Shown here in pieces: positions 6,253 to 34,894 of a stretch of 34,894 nucleotides of DNA. How positions within the stretch are numbered: position 1 is the first letter of the stretch; every line of letters starts with the position of its first letter. The stretch lies in assembly GCA_016180645.1 (NCBI GenBank), contig JACPAV010000035.1, forward strand, positions 1-34,894. The letters run 5' to 3'. The stretch is from Nitrospirota bacterium. GTDB lineage: Bacteria; JACPQY01. The position numbers and the translations under genes were made by a program. The notes under the pieces were generated by a model. It did no database searches, was not told the origin of the DNA, and saw only the letters and a list, made by a program, of their open reading frames with translations.

Positions 6253-7527
6253 ATGATCAGGCTGTGGAGTGGCGCGACTCGCGGCCCGGCGGGGTCCACC
6301 GTCTCCGGTGCCTCCCCGGCCCGAAGAGCTCTCCTCCGCGGAGGATTCGGCCTGATTCTTCTGGCCGGATGCGATCTCCTGGCTTGGCTTCTCCTCGCGG
6401 TGTCGGCGAGATTCGGCGTGGTCTATCGGCCCATCTCCGATTTCCGGCTTCTCGAAGAGGATCGACGGGCCGTCGTTCGGCTTCTCGCGGATGGGACCAC
6501 CTATCTTGTCCACAGCCCGAGCCTGGGATGGAGCATCCGCCCGCAGGCCGCGACGCCGGACGGAATGTATCGGGCGAACTCGCAGGGGATACGGGCGGGC
6601 CGGGAGTACACGGCCCGCCCACCCCACGGCCTCACCCGAATCTCGGCCTACGGAGATTCGTTTGTCCACGGGGATGAAGTCGGCTTCGACGATACGTGGG
6701 AGGCCGAGTTGATGCGTCTCGATCCGCGCCTGGAGGCGTTGAACTTCGGCGTGATGGGATTCGGATCGGACCAGGCCTTCCTTCGGTATCGGGAAGAACG
6801 AACGAGGTTTCAATCGCAAGTGGTCCTGATCGGCTACATGTCCGAGAACATCCAGCGGACCGTAAACGTGTTCCGGGCGTTCTACACGCCGGGATACGGA
6901 ATGCCTTTCACCAAGCCCCGATTTGTCCTTGACCCGTCCGGACTGAAGCTGCTCGAAAACCCATTGCCCACGCGGGCCGACTACCGGGCCATGCTGGAAA
7001 GCCCGGGCCCCACATTGCGGCGGCTTTCGAAGGATGACGGTTGGTTCAAGTGGATGCCCCATGAGGGGAAATGGGATGGGCTTGCGGTCGTTCGATTGGG
7101 CAAGACGGCTCTGTTCTGGTATCGGCGAGTTCTGGCGCCGGACGCGATTCTGACCCCGGAAGGCGTGTACCGTCGAGGATCGGATGCGTTTGAGTTGACC
7201 CGGGCCATTCTCTCCGCCTTCTACGCCGAGGTGGAGATCCACGGAGAGTTTCCCGTCATCGTCCTCTTCCCCAGTCCCGCGGATGTTCGTCGATATCGGA
7301 AAACCGGAAAAGCCCGCTACGCTCCCCTGGCGGACGATCTACAAAAGATGAAACGGCGAGTCATTGACACATTGCCGGCGTTGGCGGGCCTGACCCCGGA
7401 TCCCCTGACCCCGGATCCAGGGGGAGGCGCGGTCAACGTGCACTATTCGGCCGCTCAGAACAAGGCGGTCGCCCGCAAGATCCTGGAGGAGATGTCTCAC
7501 TCATGGCCGGACGCTCTGAAGCCCTGA
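6253..7527 (+). CDS. SGNH/GDSL-hydrolase-like membrane-anchored protein
   Basis: Start at ATG 6253 (MIRLWSG) with CCAGGA just upstream, giving 424 residues. An N-terminal membrane helix (about 28-52) precedes a periplasmic domain with SGNH signatures: block I YGDSF with Ser136, a block II Gly region (NFGVMGFGSDQ), a possible Asn in GYMSENIQ and a C-terminal NVHYS with H397 in the position of the catalytic His. Such proteins are esterases or O-acetyl transferases/esterases acting on glycans or lipids. A tandem CTGACCCCGGATCC duplication gives LTPDPLTPDP near the C-terminus. It overlaps the next gene by 25 nt, so the two are translationally linked. The substrate is unknown. Confidence 0.72.
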   Translation: MIRLWSGATRGPAGSTVSGASPARRALLRGGFGLILLAGCDLLAWLLLAVSARFGVVYRPISDFRLLEEDRRAVVRLLADGTTYLVHSPSLGWSIRPQAATPDGMYRANSQGIRAGREYTARPPHGLTRISAYGDSFVHGDEVGFDDTWEAELMRLDPRLEALNFGVMGFGSDQAFLRYREERTRFQSQVVLIGYMSENIQRTVNVFRAFYTPGYGMPFTKPRFVLDPSGLKLLENPLPTRADYRAMLESPGPTLRRLSKDDGWFKWMPHEGKWDGLAVVRLGKTALFWYRRVLAPDAILTPEGVYRRGSDAFELTRAILSAFYAEVEIHGEFPVIVLFPSPADVRRYRKTGKARYAPLADDLQKMKRRVIDTLPALAGLTPDPLTPDPGGGAVNVHYSAAQNKAVARKILEEMSHSWPDALKP

Positions 7528-13934: not shown

Positions 13935-14507
13935 ATGGAATTCCGTATCCAACTTCCTGCGATGCTGGCCGGACTCCTGACGCTGATCGCCTCCGCCCTC
14001 CCGGCCCAAGCCGAAGGACCCCGAATCACCATCGAGTTCCGGGACAATCGCGGGGATTTTGCTTACGACGTGTACAAGGACGGAGAGTGGCAGGAGATGG
14101 ACTACTACGGGCGGCAGCTTGAGAGGCTCGTCAAAGAGGACGAACAAGCGAGGAGGTTCGCGAGGGACCTGGCGGACGATCGGGAGGAGGGGAGGCAGGG
14201 CAGGATCTTTGGGCATGTACTCCTGTGGGGCTCGGTGCTGGGGACGATTGTGGCGGCGAGCTCCGAATCGACGGGCGGCACATTGCTGGGCGTGGCTGGG
14301 ATGGTCGGCGGGATCGTAGTTGCATCCAACGGAAAATCGAAAGGCCGGAAGGCCTACCGGTACCTTTTCCGGGCCGTGAACACGTACAATGAATCCATGG
14401 CCGTTCGGGGTGCTGTGCCTTCGGGTCCGGCCGTTGGCCAGCCCGGTACTCCGGATTGCTCTTGCGGCGAAGGAACTTTTCCACCCGGCGGCGCAGGGAA
14501 TCCATAG
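13935..14507 (+). CDS. Small secreted protein with glycine-rich hydrophobic segment
   Basis: 190 residues, beginning 7 nt after the stop of the giant gene, so probably co-transcribed. A clear signal peptide (cleavage likely after LPAQA, residue about 26) leads to a charged region (ITIEFRDNRGDFAYDVYKDGEW, then an acidic/basic helix KEDEQARRFARDLADD). A hydrophobic Gly/Ala/Val stretch (about 95-130; GVAGMVGGIVVAS) has the spacing of a glycine zipper, like the repeats of its neighbour. The C-terminus is Pro/Gly-rich with two close Cys (CSCGEG). No family recognised; context suggests an accessory of the giant protein. Confidence 0.7.
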   Translation: MEFRIQLPAMLAGLLTLIASALPAQAEGPRITIEFRDNRGDFAYDVYKDGEWQEMDYYGRQLERLVKEDEQARRFARDLADDREEGRQGRIFGHVLLWGSVLGTIVAASSESTGGTLLGVAGMVGGIVVASNGKSKGRKAYRYLFRAVNTYNESMAVRGAVPSGPAVGQPGTPDCSCGEGTFPPGGAGNP

Positions 14508-14517
14508 CGATTCAATT

Positions 14518-14550
14518 CGCCGTCCCCGAAGCGAAGCGGAGAGGGGCGGG
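14518..14550. repeat. Short palindromic element, family D (intergenic copy)
   Basis: CGCCGTCCCC, a central GAAGCGAAGCGGAG and a GGGGCGG arm form a hairpin of about 33 nt. The same core occurs inside the coding regions of mlaF (17466-17494) and twice inside the MmgE/PrpD gene (32008-32039 and 33165-33197). This copy lies just past the stop codon at 14507 in a convergent intergenic region, where it could also act as a terminator. Confidence 0.7.
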
Positions 14551-17176: not shown

Positions 17177-17400
17177 ACCCTCACCCCCACCCTAACCCTC
17201 CCCCGTCGCCCCCTCCGCGTTGCTCCGGGGACGGCGAGATGAAAGGCCATTCGGAGATAGCGCCGAGGGGGAGGGGGTAGGCGCAGGCTTTATGCCTGCG
17301 TCTGAAGACGCACCCATAAAGGGTGCGGCTACCATCCTTTCCCCCCTTGTCCGCCGCGGCGGACTTGCGGGGGTAGGGGAGTATGGGGGGTGCCGAACGG
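17177..17400. repeat. Composite repeat island between mlaF and mlaD, with family B copy 2
   Basis: The gap begins with C-rich CCTCACCCCCACCCTAACC-type sequence (17179-17215) and ends with a G-rich counterpart (17367-17393), giving loosely inverted ends, with the palindrome CCGCCGCGGCGG near 17351. In its middle, 17277-17332 is a family B double hairpin: GTAG, GCAGGC-TTTAT-GCCTGC, GACGCACCC-ATAAA-GGGTGCG, CTAC. It interrupts the mla operon, so it may attenuate mlaD/mlaE expression relative to mlaF. Confidence 0.7.
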
Positions 17401-17406
17401 ATACAT

Positions 17407-18288
17407 TCACAGCACCTTGATCGGGCCGTCGGAGCGGCCTTCGAAGAATTGGGAAAGGATGTCGTTCGCCCTCTCCGCTTCGCTAGGAGGGCGACGAGTG
17501 GATCCCTCATCCTGAAACCGCGTCGACGCCTTGCGAATCTCGTCCTTCGGCCCGTAGGCCACCAGTTTCGACTGGTAGAGCATTCCGATCGTGTGGGCGA
17601 TCTTGAACGTGCTCTTGATGTCGTGGCTGATCACGATGTAGGTGATGCCGAGCCGCGCCTGAGTGTCCAGGATCAGGCGGTCGATGGCGTCGCTGGTCAC
17701 GGGATCGAGGCCGGAGGTCGGCTCGTCGAACACCACCACCTCCGGATCCATCACGATCGCGCGGGCGAGGGCCACGCGCTTGCGCATGCCGCCGGAGAGT
17801 TCCGATGGATTGTAGTGCTCCGTTCCGGGCATTCCGACCAGGCGAAGTTTCTCAGCAACAATGTCACGGATTTCAGTGTCCTTGAGCTGGGTGTGTTTTA
17901 CGAGGGGGAAGGCGACGTTCTCGCCGACGCTCATCGAACCGAACAGCGCCCCGCCTTGAAACAACATGCCGAATTTCTTGCGCAGGCGGTTGAGGGCGCG
18001 ATCGTCGAGGGAGTTGACCTCGACGTCACCCACGAACACGCTTCCGCGGTCCGGCTTCATCAGTCCCACAATGTGCTTCACCAATACGCTTTTCCCCACG
18101 CCGCTCTGACCGATCACGACGGTGGTTTTTCCTCCCGGGATGTCGAGCGTAACGTCGCTGAGCACGGTTTTGCCCTTGAGTATCTTGGTCACGTTTCGAA
18201 TGCGGATGGCGTGGGGATCGTGGCGGAGTGACAGTCGGTCAATCTTCTCCAGCAGGTCGCGGTGATTCGAATTCCGGAACAATCGCAC
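17407..18288 (-). CDS. mlaF: ABC transporter ATPase of Mla phospholipid transport
   Basis: 293 residues from GTG 18288. Walker A GQSGVGKS, Q-loop LFQGGALFGSMSVGENVAFPL, signature LSGGMRKRVALARA, Walker B VVVFDEPTSGLD and switch His in VISHDI are all intact. The QGGALF and C-terminal EGRSDGPI tail are Mla/Mkl-type hallmarks. The C-terminal region is about 18-19 residues longer than E. coli MlaF between KAS and QFFEG; the extra segment contains RRPPSEAER encoded by a family D palindrome (17466-17494). The N-terminus carries about 25 extra residues before the NBD. It powers lipid movement through MlaE/MlaD at the inner membrane; the direction is not deducible from sequence. Confidence 0.92.
   Translation of the reverse strand: MRLFRNSNHRDLLEKIDRLSLRHDPHAIRIRNVTKILKGKTVLSDVTLDIPGGKTTVVIGQSGVGKSVLVKHIVGLMKPDRGSVFVGDVEVNSLDDRALNRLRKKFGMLFQGGALFGSMSVGENVAFPLVKHTQLKDTEIRDIVAEKLRLVGMPGTEHYNPSELSGGMRKRVALARAIVMDPEVVVFDEPTSGLDPVTSDAIDRLILDTQARLGITYIVISHDIKSTFKIAHTIGMLYQSKLVAYGPKDEIRKASTRFQDEGSTRRPPSEAERANDILSQFFEGRSDGPIKVL
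17466..17494 (-). repeat. Family D palindrome inside mlaF coding region
   Basis: Inverted arms TCGCCCTC (17466-17473) and GAGGGCGA (17487-17494) flank a GCGAAGCGGAG core on the coding strand. It is read in frame as RRPPSEAER, matching the RRPRSEAEG encoded by the copy in the MmgE/PrpD gene. Confidence 0.7.
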
Positions 18289-18294
18289 CGCGGA

Positions 18295-18323
18295 ATGCTA
18301 CACGATCACCCCTCGACGGGCAA
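18295..18323 (-). promoter_or_regulatory. Putative promoter of mlaF within the PLC gene 3' end
   Basis: On the minus strand TTGCCC (18318-18323), 17-nt spacer, TAGCAT (18295-18300), then 6 nt to the GTG start of mlaF. The short distance would yield a leaderless mRNA. It overlaps the last codons of the upstream phospholipase gene. Confidence 0.4.
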
Positions 18324-19211: not shown

Positions 19212-19242
19212 GGAGTATTACTACCGCAGTTGGTCGGTTCCG

Positions 19243-19362
19243 GGTAGTCGCAGCCCCTTGCCCAAGACGGCATGGGGCCATGATAGGTTGTGGCCCAGGA
19301 TGGGCCACATGGAACATGGCCTTCAGGCTGCGCACCGAACGCGGGCTGAAGCCCGCGGCTAC
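19243..19362. repeat. REP-like palindromic element, family B copy 3 (expanded)
   Basis: It starts with GTAGTCGCAGCCCC, passes through several nested GGCC/CATGG palindromes (CATGGGGCCATG; GTGGCCCAGGATGGGCCAC) and ends with the perfect hairpin GCGGGC-TGAA-GCCCGC followed by GGCTAC. The ends match the GTAG...CTAC plan of the copies at 14612 and 17277. It occupies most of the spacer between the two minus-strand genes ending at 19395 and starting at 19211. Confidence 0.7.
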
Positions 19363-26200: not shown

Positions 26201-26308
26201 AAGAGCCTCTGACAGAATGCCGATTCGTAGGGGAGCATCTTCAGATGCTCCCTCTTGTCGGGAGGGTCTGAAGACCCTCCGCTACGCATTCTGTTAGACG
26301 CACTAAAT
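26201..26308. repeat. REP/MITE-like element, family A copy 2
   Basis: Inverted ends (AGAGCCTCTGACAGAATGC at 26202-26220, and ATTCTGTTAG with flanking at 26288-26308) enclose GTAG, hairpin GGGAGCATCT-TC-AGATGCTCCC, linker TCTTGTC, hairpin GGAGGGTCT-GA-AGACCCTCC, CTAC. It is nearly identical to the copy at 34799 and is in reverse orientation to the copy at 432. It abuts the 3' end of the hicB remnant. Confidence 0.8.
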
Positions 26309-28928: not shown

Positions 28929-28986
28929 ATTGCTCGCCTTCCTGGCTCGCGTACATCCGGACATCTGCGGACATCTGGCAGACATC

Positions 28987-29045
28987 TGGGGACAGTATAC
29001 TAATTTCGGAAAAGTTGATCCTGAAGAATTAGTATACTGTCCCCA
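28987..29045. repeat. Perfect inverted repeat (19-bp arms) with flanking GGACATCTG repeats
   Basis: TGGGGACAGTATACTAATT (28987-29005) and its exact complement (29027-29045) flank a 21-nt loop. Just upstream, GGACATCTG-type units recur three times (about 28957-28990). GGGGACAGTATACT palindromes are familiar to me as repeats scattered through uncultured bacterial genomes, often beside RAYT-like transposases; none is present here. Being 58 nt past the pyrG stop, it could also end transcription. Confidence 0.75.
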
Positions 29046-31778: not shown

Positions 31779-33506
31779 ATGAAGATGGGCAACGGGGCAC
31801 TAATCGACGAAATGGCCGAATGGGTGGCCGGAGTTCGGTATGCCGACATTCCGCCGCGCGTGTGCGAGCGGATCAAAGTGCAATCGATCGGCATGTTGGG
31901 GGCGGCGTTTGGAGGTCTGAAATCCGAAGGCGGCCGCGCGGCGCTCAGCGCGGTGAGAAAGCGGACCGCGGAGGGGGCGGCGCAAGCTCCCGATGGAGAT
32001 TCCGATCGCCGTCCCCGGAGCCGAGCGGAGGGGGCGGCGACGATCTTTCCGACGGGGGAGAAGGGTCCACCGCACGAAGCCTTGTTCGCCAATACTGCGT
32101 TATCGATGACGTTCGACTACGATGACTACCTGTATATGGGTCACACGGGGCATTCGGCCATCTTCTCGCCGTGGGCCGTGTGCGAAGGTCTGGGCCGGAG
32201 CGGCGAAGATTTTCTCCTCGCGGCGGCGGTGGCAAACGAGGTCGAAGGGCGAATTGGAGCAACGGTCCTACTCGGGCCTCACAATGGGCAGCTTTGGTCG
32301 TTCATCCACGCCGTCGGCACCGCCTGCGCCGCGGCGAAGCTGATGGGTTTGAACGCGGCGCAGATTCGGAATGCCATCGGGATCAGCCTCTATCTGCCTC
32401 CCTTCACGATGATGCCGGGCTTCATGGGACCGTCGAGCAAGGTCACCACGGCCGCTTTCCCATCGGTGAACGGCCTGCGGGCGGCGGAACTGGCTGCCGA
32501 AGGGTTGACCGGAGCGGGACGGCTGCTGGAAGATCGGCAGGGTTTCCTGCGGCACTTCTCGTTTATTCCCCTGCCGCGGATGCTCAGCGGGTGGGGTAAG
32601 ACGTGGGTGACCGATTCTCTGAGCTTCAAGGCGTATCCGGGATGCGCCTACGTGAGCTCCATCGCGGAAGCCCTTCGGGCCTCACTCCGGGAGCTCGGGA
32701 TGGAAAGCGGCCTCAAGGATCCGGCCGAGATGGATTCGCTGCGGATTCGCGTCACATTGCTGACGCTCGGGATGGACGGGCTTTCCGCGCCGTACCTGGA
32801 AACGCCGCCGTCTTCGATCCACGTCAACTTCTCGGCCGCCTTGAGTGCCGCCGTCACGCTCCTGAACGGCGATCTGCGGCCGGACCATCTTTCGGAAAAG
32901 AAATTGAAGTCCGATTGGCCGGTCCTGTCGTCCTTTGTCGAGAAGACGCGTGTGGAGCATGATTGGGAAATGACGGTGGAACTGGTCCGTGGGATCGCGC
33001 AGGGCGTCAACCTCGCGCCACTCTTTACGCGCATCCCTGTGAGGGAATGGATTTCCCTCCGTAAGAAGGCGCGGGAACAGCATCACGTTTCGCTCCGCGG
33101 CGTCCGTCCGAAACACATCTGGCGGATCATCAAGACGGCGCGAGGCCGGCATGAGGGCTCGTTCCGCCGCCCCCGAAGCGAAGCGGAGGGGACGGCGCGA
33201 GGCAACGGGGTTGGCGGCCGATTCGATCTGGCGAATGCGAAATTCGAGGACCTCCGGATGAACTTTGCGAGTGAGGTGGAAATCCGGCTCAAGGGCGGCC
33301 GAAGCGCGCGGGCGAGGGTGGACCTTCCCCCGGGATCGTCGGGACGTCCGTGGCAGGAGAGCGTGGACTTGATGGCCGCCAAGCTGGACCGTGAAGCGGC
33401 GGGTTGTCTCTCGGCGGAAAAAATCGCCGCGATCCGCGAAGCGGTCATGGGCATCGAGAAGTGCCGCGATCTCCGCGCTCTTTCGCCCCTCTTCAAGGGG
33501 AATTGA
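31779..33506 (+). CDS. MmgE/PrpD-family protein with two in-frame palindromic insertions
   Basis: 575 residues, longer than typical members (about 450-480). The all-helical N-terminal domain (MTFDYDDYLYMGHTGHSAIFSPWA, GRIGATVLLGPHNGQLWSFIHAVG) contains the DYDD-x-x-x-x-GHxGxx signature of 2-methylcitrate dehydratase/cis-aconitate decarboxylase relatives; a second domain follows (YPGCAYVSSIAEAL). Excess length comes partly from segments encoded by palindromes: AEGAAQAPDGDSDRRPRSR (about 64-82, before the active-site region) and TARGRHEGSFRRPRSEAEG (about 453-471). Both are followed by a second copy of their first residues (AEGAA; TARG). Reaction unknown; the family dehydrates or isomerises methylcitrate-like acids. 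It is tightly packed after plsC. Confidence 0.85.
   Translation: MKMGNGALIDEMAEWVAGVRYADIPPRVCERIKVQSIGMLGAAFGGLKSEGGRAALSAVRKRTAEGAAQAPDGDSDRRPRSRAEGAATIFPTGEKGPPHEALFANTALSMTFDYDDYLYMGHTGHSAIFSPWAVCEGLGRSGEDFLLAAAVANEVEGRIGATVLLGPHNGQLWSFIHAVGTACAAAKLMGLNAAQIRNAIGISLYLPPFTMMPGFMGPSSKVTTAAFPSVNGLRAAELAAEGLTGAGRLLEDRQGFLRHFSFIPLPRMLSGWGKTWVTDSLSFKAYPGCAYVSSIAEALRASLRELGMESGLKDPAEMDSLRIRVTLLTLGMDGLSAPYLETPPSSIHVNFSAALSAAVTLLNGDLRPDHLSEKKLKSDWPVLSSFVEKTRVEHDWEMTVELVRGIAQGVNLAPLFTRIPVREWISLRKKAREQHHVSLRGVRPKHIWRIIKTARGRHEGSFRRPRSEAEGTARGNGVGGRFDLANAKFEDLRMNFASEVEIRLKGGRSARARVDLPPGSSGRPWQESVDLMAAKLDREAAGCLSAEKIAAIREAVMGIEKCRDLRALSPLFKGN
31968..32039 (+). repeat. Family D palindromic insertion 1 in MmgE/PrpD gene
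   Basis: Palindrome CGCCGTCCCC...GGGGGCGGCG (32008-32039) is bracketed by direct repeats GCGGAGGGGGCGGCG at 31968-31982 and 32025-32039, exactly 57 nt apart (19 codons). It is read in frame as RRPRSRAEG. Confidence 0.75.
33134..33203 (+). repeat. Family D palindromic insertion 2 in MmgE/PrpD gene
   Basis: Palindrome 33165-33197 (arms CGCCGCCCCC and GGGGACGGCG, core GAAGCGAAGCGGA) is bracketed by direct repeats GACGGCGCGAGGC at 33134-33146 and 33191-33203, again exactly 57 nt (19 codons) apart. It is read in frame as RRPRSEAEG. Confidence 0.8.
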
Positions 33507-34798: not shown

Positions 34799-34894
34799 CT
34801 TAGAGCCTCTGAGAGAATGCCGGTTCGTAGGGGAGCATCTTCAGATGCTCCCTCTTGTCGGGAGGGTCTGAAGACCCTCCCCTACGCATAAGGA
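34799..34894. repeat. REP/MITE-like element, family A copy 3 (cut by window edge)
   Basis: Begins TTAGAGCCTCTGAGAGAATGC and contains GTAG, GGGAGCATCT/AGATGCTCCC, the TCTTGTC linker, GGAGGGTCT/AGACCCTCC and CCTAC, nearly identical to the copy at 26201 and in the same orientation. A partial TTAGAGCCT start also occurs about 47 nt earlier (34752). It follows the protease gene and may terminate the upstream operon. Confidence 0.8.

Follow-up and report, generated by a model that had tools for sequence, protein, structure and literature searches.

A probable dispersed 57-nt palindromic element inserted twice in a MmgE/PrpD-family gene of a Nitrospirota bacterium

The MmgE/PrpD-family gene and its two inserts

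The DNA analysed here, referred to as the window, is a stretch of 34,894 nt from contig JACPAV010000035.1 of a Nitrospirota bacterium. A gene of the MmgE/PrpD family is located at positions 31779-33506 on the forward strand and is defined by its open reading frame and by matches to Pfam families PF03972 and PF19305. Two pairs of direct repeats are found in the gene. The first is a 15-nt repeat, GCGGAGGGGGCGGCG, present as exact copies at 31968-31982 and 32025-32039, and the second is a 13-nt repeat, GACGGCGCGAGGC, exact at 33134-33146 and 33191-33203. Both pairs have a start-to-start distance of 57 nt, as reported in a preliminary description of this DNA.

Each repeat pair marks one copy of a 57-nt sequence on the forward strand. 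Copy A is at 31978-32034 and is defined by alignment and by a covariance model match (31975-32039, 70.6 bits); its first pentamer is at 31978-31982, an internal pentamer at 32007-32011 and a hairpin at 32012-32034. Copy B is at 33136-33192, with a model match at 33133-33197 (62.6 bits), and is absent from the orthologue in a related genome, G001. Both copies are in frame, and the 31779-33506 frame runs across them without a stop codon. Copy A is upstream of the FDYDDY motif in this frame, which agrees with its earlier placement ahead of the DYDD motif. The two copies have an internal CGCCG(T/C)CCCC and a tail, GCGGAGGGG, in common at equal spacing when aligned side by side, and are identical at 38 of 57 positions. 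Thus they represent separate insertions of one family, neither having been copied from the other, and the suggestion that the units at 31968 and 33134 differ in nature does not hold: both belong to a single dispersed family.

At site A, the boundaries seen in the family as a whole point to a repeat that is probably part element tail and part host sequence. The left 15-nt repeat (31968-31982) would consist of 10 nt of tail-like host flank followed by the first pentamer, and the right one (32025-32039) of the last 10 nt of the element followed by 5 nt of host sequence.

The window has five element copies in total. The three further copies are at 14489-14545 on the forward strand (73.8 bits), and on the reverse strand at 17209-17265 (58.8 bits) and 17469-17525 (55.4 bits), the last located towards the 3′ terminus of a gene for an ABC-transporter ATPase (PF00005, frame 17410-18297).

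Other repeats are also present in the window. Near both contig ends, at 34826-34886 and 451-511, there are different palindromes with GTAGGGGAG...CTCCCCTAC arms and the appearance of GTAG REPs. Elsewhere in the genome, one of seven Y1 transposase genes, at 35110-35430 of locus L043 (G000:C5), has many GTAGGGG/CCCCTAC motifs within 1.5 kb and is a candidate RAYT with its GTAG REPs. A 103-nt stretch at 26202-26304 is 97% identical to a stretch of contig C7 (L122:5747-5848) and represents another dispersed repeat. A further repeat family is seen at 19239-19362, where ~125 nt are 76-78% identical to stretches of C8 and C34, which in turn resemble one in C5. Short tandem repeats are found at 7125-7160 (~18-nt unit), 7389-7418 (~15 nt) and 28958-28994 (~10 nt).

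Structure and distribution of the element family

The 57-nt unit consists of a pentamer CGNNG, 24 nt, an internal pentamer CNNCG, and a hairpin TCCCC-GNAGCGNAGCGGA-GGGGR. The first pentamer is complementary to the internal pentamer in 129 of 149 copies with the better placement of the pentamers, and the two are exact complements in 121 of 149 with a simpler placement (shuffles: mean 46, maximum 64), counts that are partly circular, as the model that found the 149 copies includes this first stem. In 33 aligned copies, which were chosen by their tail motifs and not by the stem, pairing in the first stem holds for 97.6% of cells, and compensatory changes, affecting both sides of the pair, are seen at two of the five base pairs. 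The single-strand folding energies of five copies are no better than those of shuffled sequences; thus it is covariation, and not stability, that supports the structure. The first pentamers fall into the classes CGGCG, CGACG and CGATG, with few CGGTG and CTGCG and one CGAGG. The hairpin loop is GCNNNGC in 120 of 149 copies, and in 110 of those the third loop base is A; d(GCGNAGC) forms a DNA mini-hairpin of unusual stability. Two copies (L144:701-795 and one in L094, C20:29586-29680) carry an extra 30-nt loop hairpin of the same kind, and one of these two is in frame within an RND-pump gene.

The covariance model was built from the 33 aligned copies, 32 from 38 loci plus the window copy; six loci (L002, L004, L005, L006, L036 and L038) were dropped from the alignment as duplicate or poorly placed. 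A search with the model (E up to 0.0082) revealed at least 149 copies in the 4.7-Mb source genome, a minimum figure, as scoring covered 150 of the 5042 first-look candidates. A 19-nt core from copy B has 115 genome matches with up to 3 mismatches, as opposed to 9 for the reversed pattern. The copies are spread across 39 contigs. Two contigs, C20 and C25 (187 kb; L093-L103), hold 41 of the 149, mainly of the CGACG class. Genes sampled from these contigs mostly have no Pfam or PHROG match, one encoding a primase-like protein, and C20/C25 may be a plasmid-like host for recent spread. When 41 genomes were searched with the model under stricter filters, 128 copies were found in the source genome and 6 in G001, which is of the same family, and no match in the other 39. 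A core pattern, used to look for phage spread, had no exact match in viral_contigs, and one copy used as a blastn query had no match in plasmids or phages. A literature text search for the string GCGAAGCGGAGGGG gave no hit, a result that concerns that string.

The ends of the unit are sharp. In 112 closely similar copy pairs (44 elements), identity stays at background until the base before CGNNG and is high from CGNNG onward, and it returns to background three bases past the last conserved G of GGGG; the 17 independent pairs in this boundary test include one tandem pair. Nested copies provide a second measure of length. Eleven copies sit within another copy, and when 30 excision lengths were tried for each, removal of 57 nt at the expected start (±1 nt) best restored the outer element in 7 of the 11. 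The effect is weak in one of these; in the other six no duplicated sequence remains after the 57 nt are removed. The remaining four comprise one with a third nested element, one whose outer copy is a partial match and two with a different inner unit. Most nested insertions are at one position, inside the internal pentamer of the outer copy, although this shared position may reflect the spread of composite elements instead of repeated insertion. The insert at site A very probably belongs to a dispersed family of non-autonomous palindromic elements, 57 nt long and of the REP/RPE kind.

Host genes, empty sites and direct repeats

Of 27 open frames scanned, chosen as the best-looking ones (the PrpD frame and 26 taken from a codon-position G+C ranking), 24 have a Pfam match. 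The carriers include an ABC ATPase, DnaB, Usp, an RND pump, E1 dehydrogenase, DnaJ, an NHL protein, TrkH, FapA, a nucleotidyl transferase, a DinB-type polymerase, a molybdopterin oxidoreductase, SufBD, a B12/radical-SAM protein, TldD and a tRNA-ribosyltransferase (TGT). A sigma-54 activator and Mfd have two copies each, and a histidine kinase (HisK) has a tandem pair. In DnaB, FapA, HisK and TldD the copy precedes the first Pfam match and may be upstream of the true start codon. Among 26 in-gene copies that were translated, 21 are read in the sense and 5 in the antisense direction relative to the element, and the peptides they encode have a polar character (RRPRSEAEG or SSSPERS type). Copies inserted in loops or linkers would survive within genes because 57 nt equal 19 codons, the frames used are free of stops and the peptides are polar.

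A structured RNA or regulatory hairpin maintained by selection, as opposed to a mobile element, would account for the compensatory changes in the first stem. However, the copies are found inside unrelated coding genes in both orientations and several frames, folding is not above that of shuffles, no Rfam match is present in the window at gathering thresholds, and two genomes of one family hold at least 149 and 6 copies, respectively. A role of this type is very improbable as the explanation.

G001 is the one other genome of the source's family among those searched, and comparison of orthologues gives three usable cases. In TGT, the source has CKSA, 19 residues and RQTDQA where G001 has CKAALHSDQA, an exact 57-nt insert, which falls in an alignment gap in a PDB search. 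The E1 dehydrogenase shows an exact insert of 18 residues (54 nt) relative to G001, and its element copy is itself 3 nt shorter. The sigma-54 activator homologue in G001, which at 44% identity is perhaps not an orthologue, indicates 18+1 residues at one of the two copies and gives no clean boundary at the other. An insert length other than 57 nt, which was named at the outset as evidence against a fixed unit, is seen at the E1 site, in a copy that is short to the same extent, and the TGT site gives 57 nt. For SufBD only weak G001 matches (27-32% identity) were found, and for DinB no full orthologue in G001, so that neither provided an empty site.

In the MmgE/PrpD-family gene the proposed comparison with an uninterrupted relative succeeded in part: G001 lacks both inserts, but the boundary at site A is not clean, the linkers being 24 and 14 residues long. 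At site B a TAR motif is present in both genomes, and the linker length difference is 21 residues and not 19, so this site also is not clean. To judge from a DGAAT motif in a distant homologue (L079), GAAT at site A may be an ancestral host sequence, and with it GG(N)GCGGCGACG.

The empty sites also bear on slippage or local duplication, by which 57 nt would be a repeat period and single copies the remains of decayed arrays. True arrays with 57/58-nt spacing do exist (C2:101667/101724/101782, C3:236473/236530, C13:7257/7314 and C2:13849/13906). However, copies are distributed over many contigs and in unrelated genes, and the TGT and E1 dehydrogenase orthologues have no precursor unit. For the dispersed copies slippage is contradicted by these clean empty sites, and as a general explanation it is scarcely credible.

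The excess of direct repeats at 57 nt is beyond chance, as the preliminary description had supposed: exact repeats of at least 8 nt occur at this distance in 15 of 149 copies, and every other distance in the range 48-65 accounts for 0-4 copies, although part of the peak comes from the true 57/58-nt tandem arrays on C2, C3 and C13. That description had also viewed the repeats as signs of a mobilised or duplicated unit of fixed length. The fixed length of 57 nt is borne out, but a regular target duplication is not, since in non-tandem copies the pentamer on the right equals that on the left in 27 of 137 (shuffles: mean 5.8, maximum 12). By class, the match is found in 16 of 57 CGGCG, 8 of 21 CGATG and 1 of 47 CGACG copies. 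The direct repeats are no regular target-site duplication. Duplication as a general rule was the first model tested and was dropped on the 27/137 count, the sharp family ends and the nested copies.

A rival explanation, in line with the preliminary description, is a classical miniature transposon with a core of ~42-52 nt flanked by a target-site duplication of 5-15 bp. The 27 matches exceed the shuffled expectation, 13 of them extend by at least 2 nt, and among the 20 of 149 copies with mismatched first and internal pentamers the right flank follows the left pentamer in 7 (a single tandem array accounts for 2 of these) and never the internal one, which favours true duplication. However, 110 of 137 copies, including the three that score best, show no duplication, and the repeat is nearly absent from the CGACG class. 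In addition, nested copies are restored by removing 57 nt with nothing left duplicated, and the site A repeat contains residues that are conserved across the family. A miniature transposon of this type is therefore considered unlikely.

Most simply, the repeats would reflect a site preference, in which the element favours targets similar to the junction between its own tail and head. In 114 copies, with nested and tandem ones removed, the host sequence on the right agrees with the head of the copy at 483 of 912 positions (shuffled 407.5, sd 9.3; within-class shuffle 453). On the tail side the resemblance is in general a weak excess, 391 of 1140 versus 370. At site A the junction resemblance extends over 10 nt of tail and 5 nt of head. 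It should be noted that A, B and certain further copies have extended direct repeats that exceed what the weak general preference predicts, and this counts against the reading.

According to the mechanism proposed, the element would insert as an exact 57-nt block without regular target duplication, and would favour targets with the look of its tail/head junction (GG|CGNNGC), among them the internal pentamers of other copies. Insertion would be carried out by a trans-acting enzyme, possibly a Y1 transposase, an IS110-type enzyme or a tyrosine recombinase, that recognises the hairpin and pentamer and acts on a 57-nt form, either circular or single-stranded. This mode of insertion, i.e., an exact block, no duplication and a junction-like target, is somewhat favoured. 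The assignment of any particular mobilising enzyme is doubtful. Seven Y1 transposase genes are present in the source genome; clear copies lie within 1.5 kb of one of the seven and do not flank it, compared with a chance expectation of ~0.7 (our own estimate from copy density). As this is about chance level, no Y1 gene can be tied to the element. IS110-type recombinases join a donor junction to a target with a short core sequence in common; three IS110-type matches were found in the genome, two of them over the cut-off, and no tie to the element is seen for these either.

A further possibility, which is distinctly unlikely, is that the internal pentamer serves as a DNA guide, which would base-pair with the 5′ pentamer of the same element and select matching targets. 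The 57-nt element would then be guide-directed, with the guide sites of its own family among its targets. If so, classes CGCCG, CGTCG, CATCG, CACCG and CCTCG should insert at correspondingly different pentamers.

Comparison with known elements

MITEs of DDE transposons are small, non-autonomous, dispersed elements in many copies, with terminal inverted repeats and target-site duplication. The element described here is likewise small, non-autonomous, dispersed and multi-copy. However, it has no terminal inverted repeats, as its ends are CGNNGC and GGGGR and the sequence complementary to the first pentamer lies in the interior, and it has no regular target-site duplication (27/137; nested copies).

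In IS200/IS605 elements, a guide motif at the hairpin foot pairs with the target. The element is similar to these and to the GTAG REPs with their RAYT in that a motif at the hairpin foot is complementary to an edge motif (129/149 copies here), and in the lack of regular target duplication (for REPs, PMC3733652). However, the pentamer that takes part in the pairing is the 5′ end of the element itself and not flanking target, and no Y1 gene is tied to the copies.

The Rickettsia palindromic elements (RPEs; PMC10969869 and PMC3733652) likewise add a peptide to unrelated proteins of metabolism and repair by in-frame insertion into their genes. They are ~150 bp long (PMC10969869) versus 57 nt here, are found in another lineage, and probably differ in sequence.

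The CGTC-tagged REPs of Di Nocera, De Gregorio and Rocco (2013, PMC3733652) apparently have no dedicated transposase. They have CGTC at the hairpin foot, as do 131 of 149 copies here, occur in many copies per genome, and are intragenic, including in replication and repair genes. Several differences should be considered. Their tag is terminal and unpaired, whereas here the motif is internal (~33 nt into the unit), and pairing with the 5′ pentamer involves its first two bases. Their stem is 8-9 bp and nearly always starts with A/T, in contrast to the short G+C-rich TCCCC/GGGGR stem; their loop is 4-5 nt with a CCA tail, in contrast to 13 nt between the arms and no conserved tail. A fixed 57-nt unit, a 34-nt head and self-nesting are features of the present element. 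Head-to-head dimers predominate among the CGTC REPs. In neighbouring pairs less than 400 nt apart (n=16), 13 are on the same strand here and 3 on opposite strands.

The family supplies an exact unit length, nested-copy junctions, a target preference and filled and empty gene pairs, so that its insertion reaction is directly testable. It also presents a fresh case of elements that add peptides of ~19 residues to core proteins (TGT, Mfd, SufBD, sigma-54 activators), in a lineage with only one close relative among the genomes searched. The CGTC REPs and RPEs are the closest relatives, yet several of their defining features fail here; it is an element that works like them.
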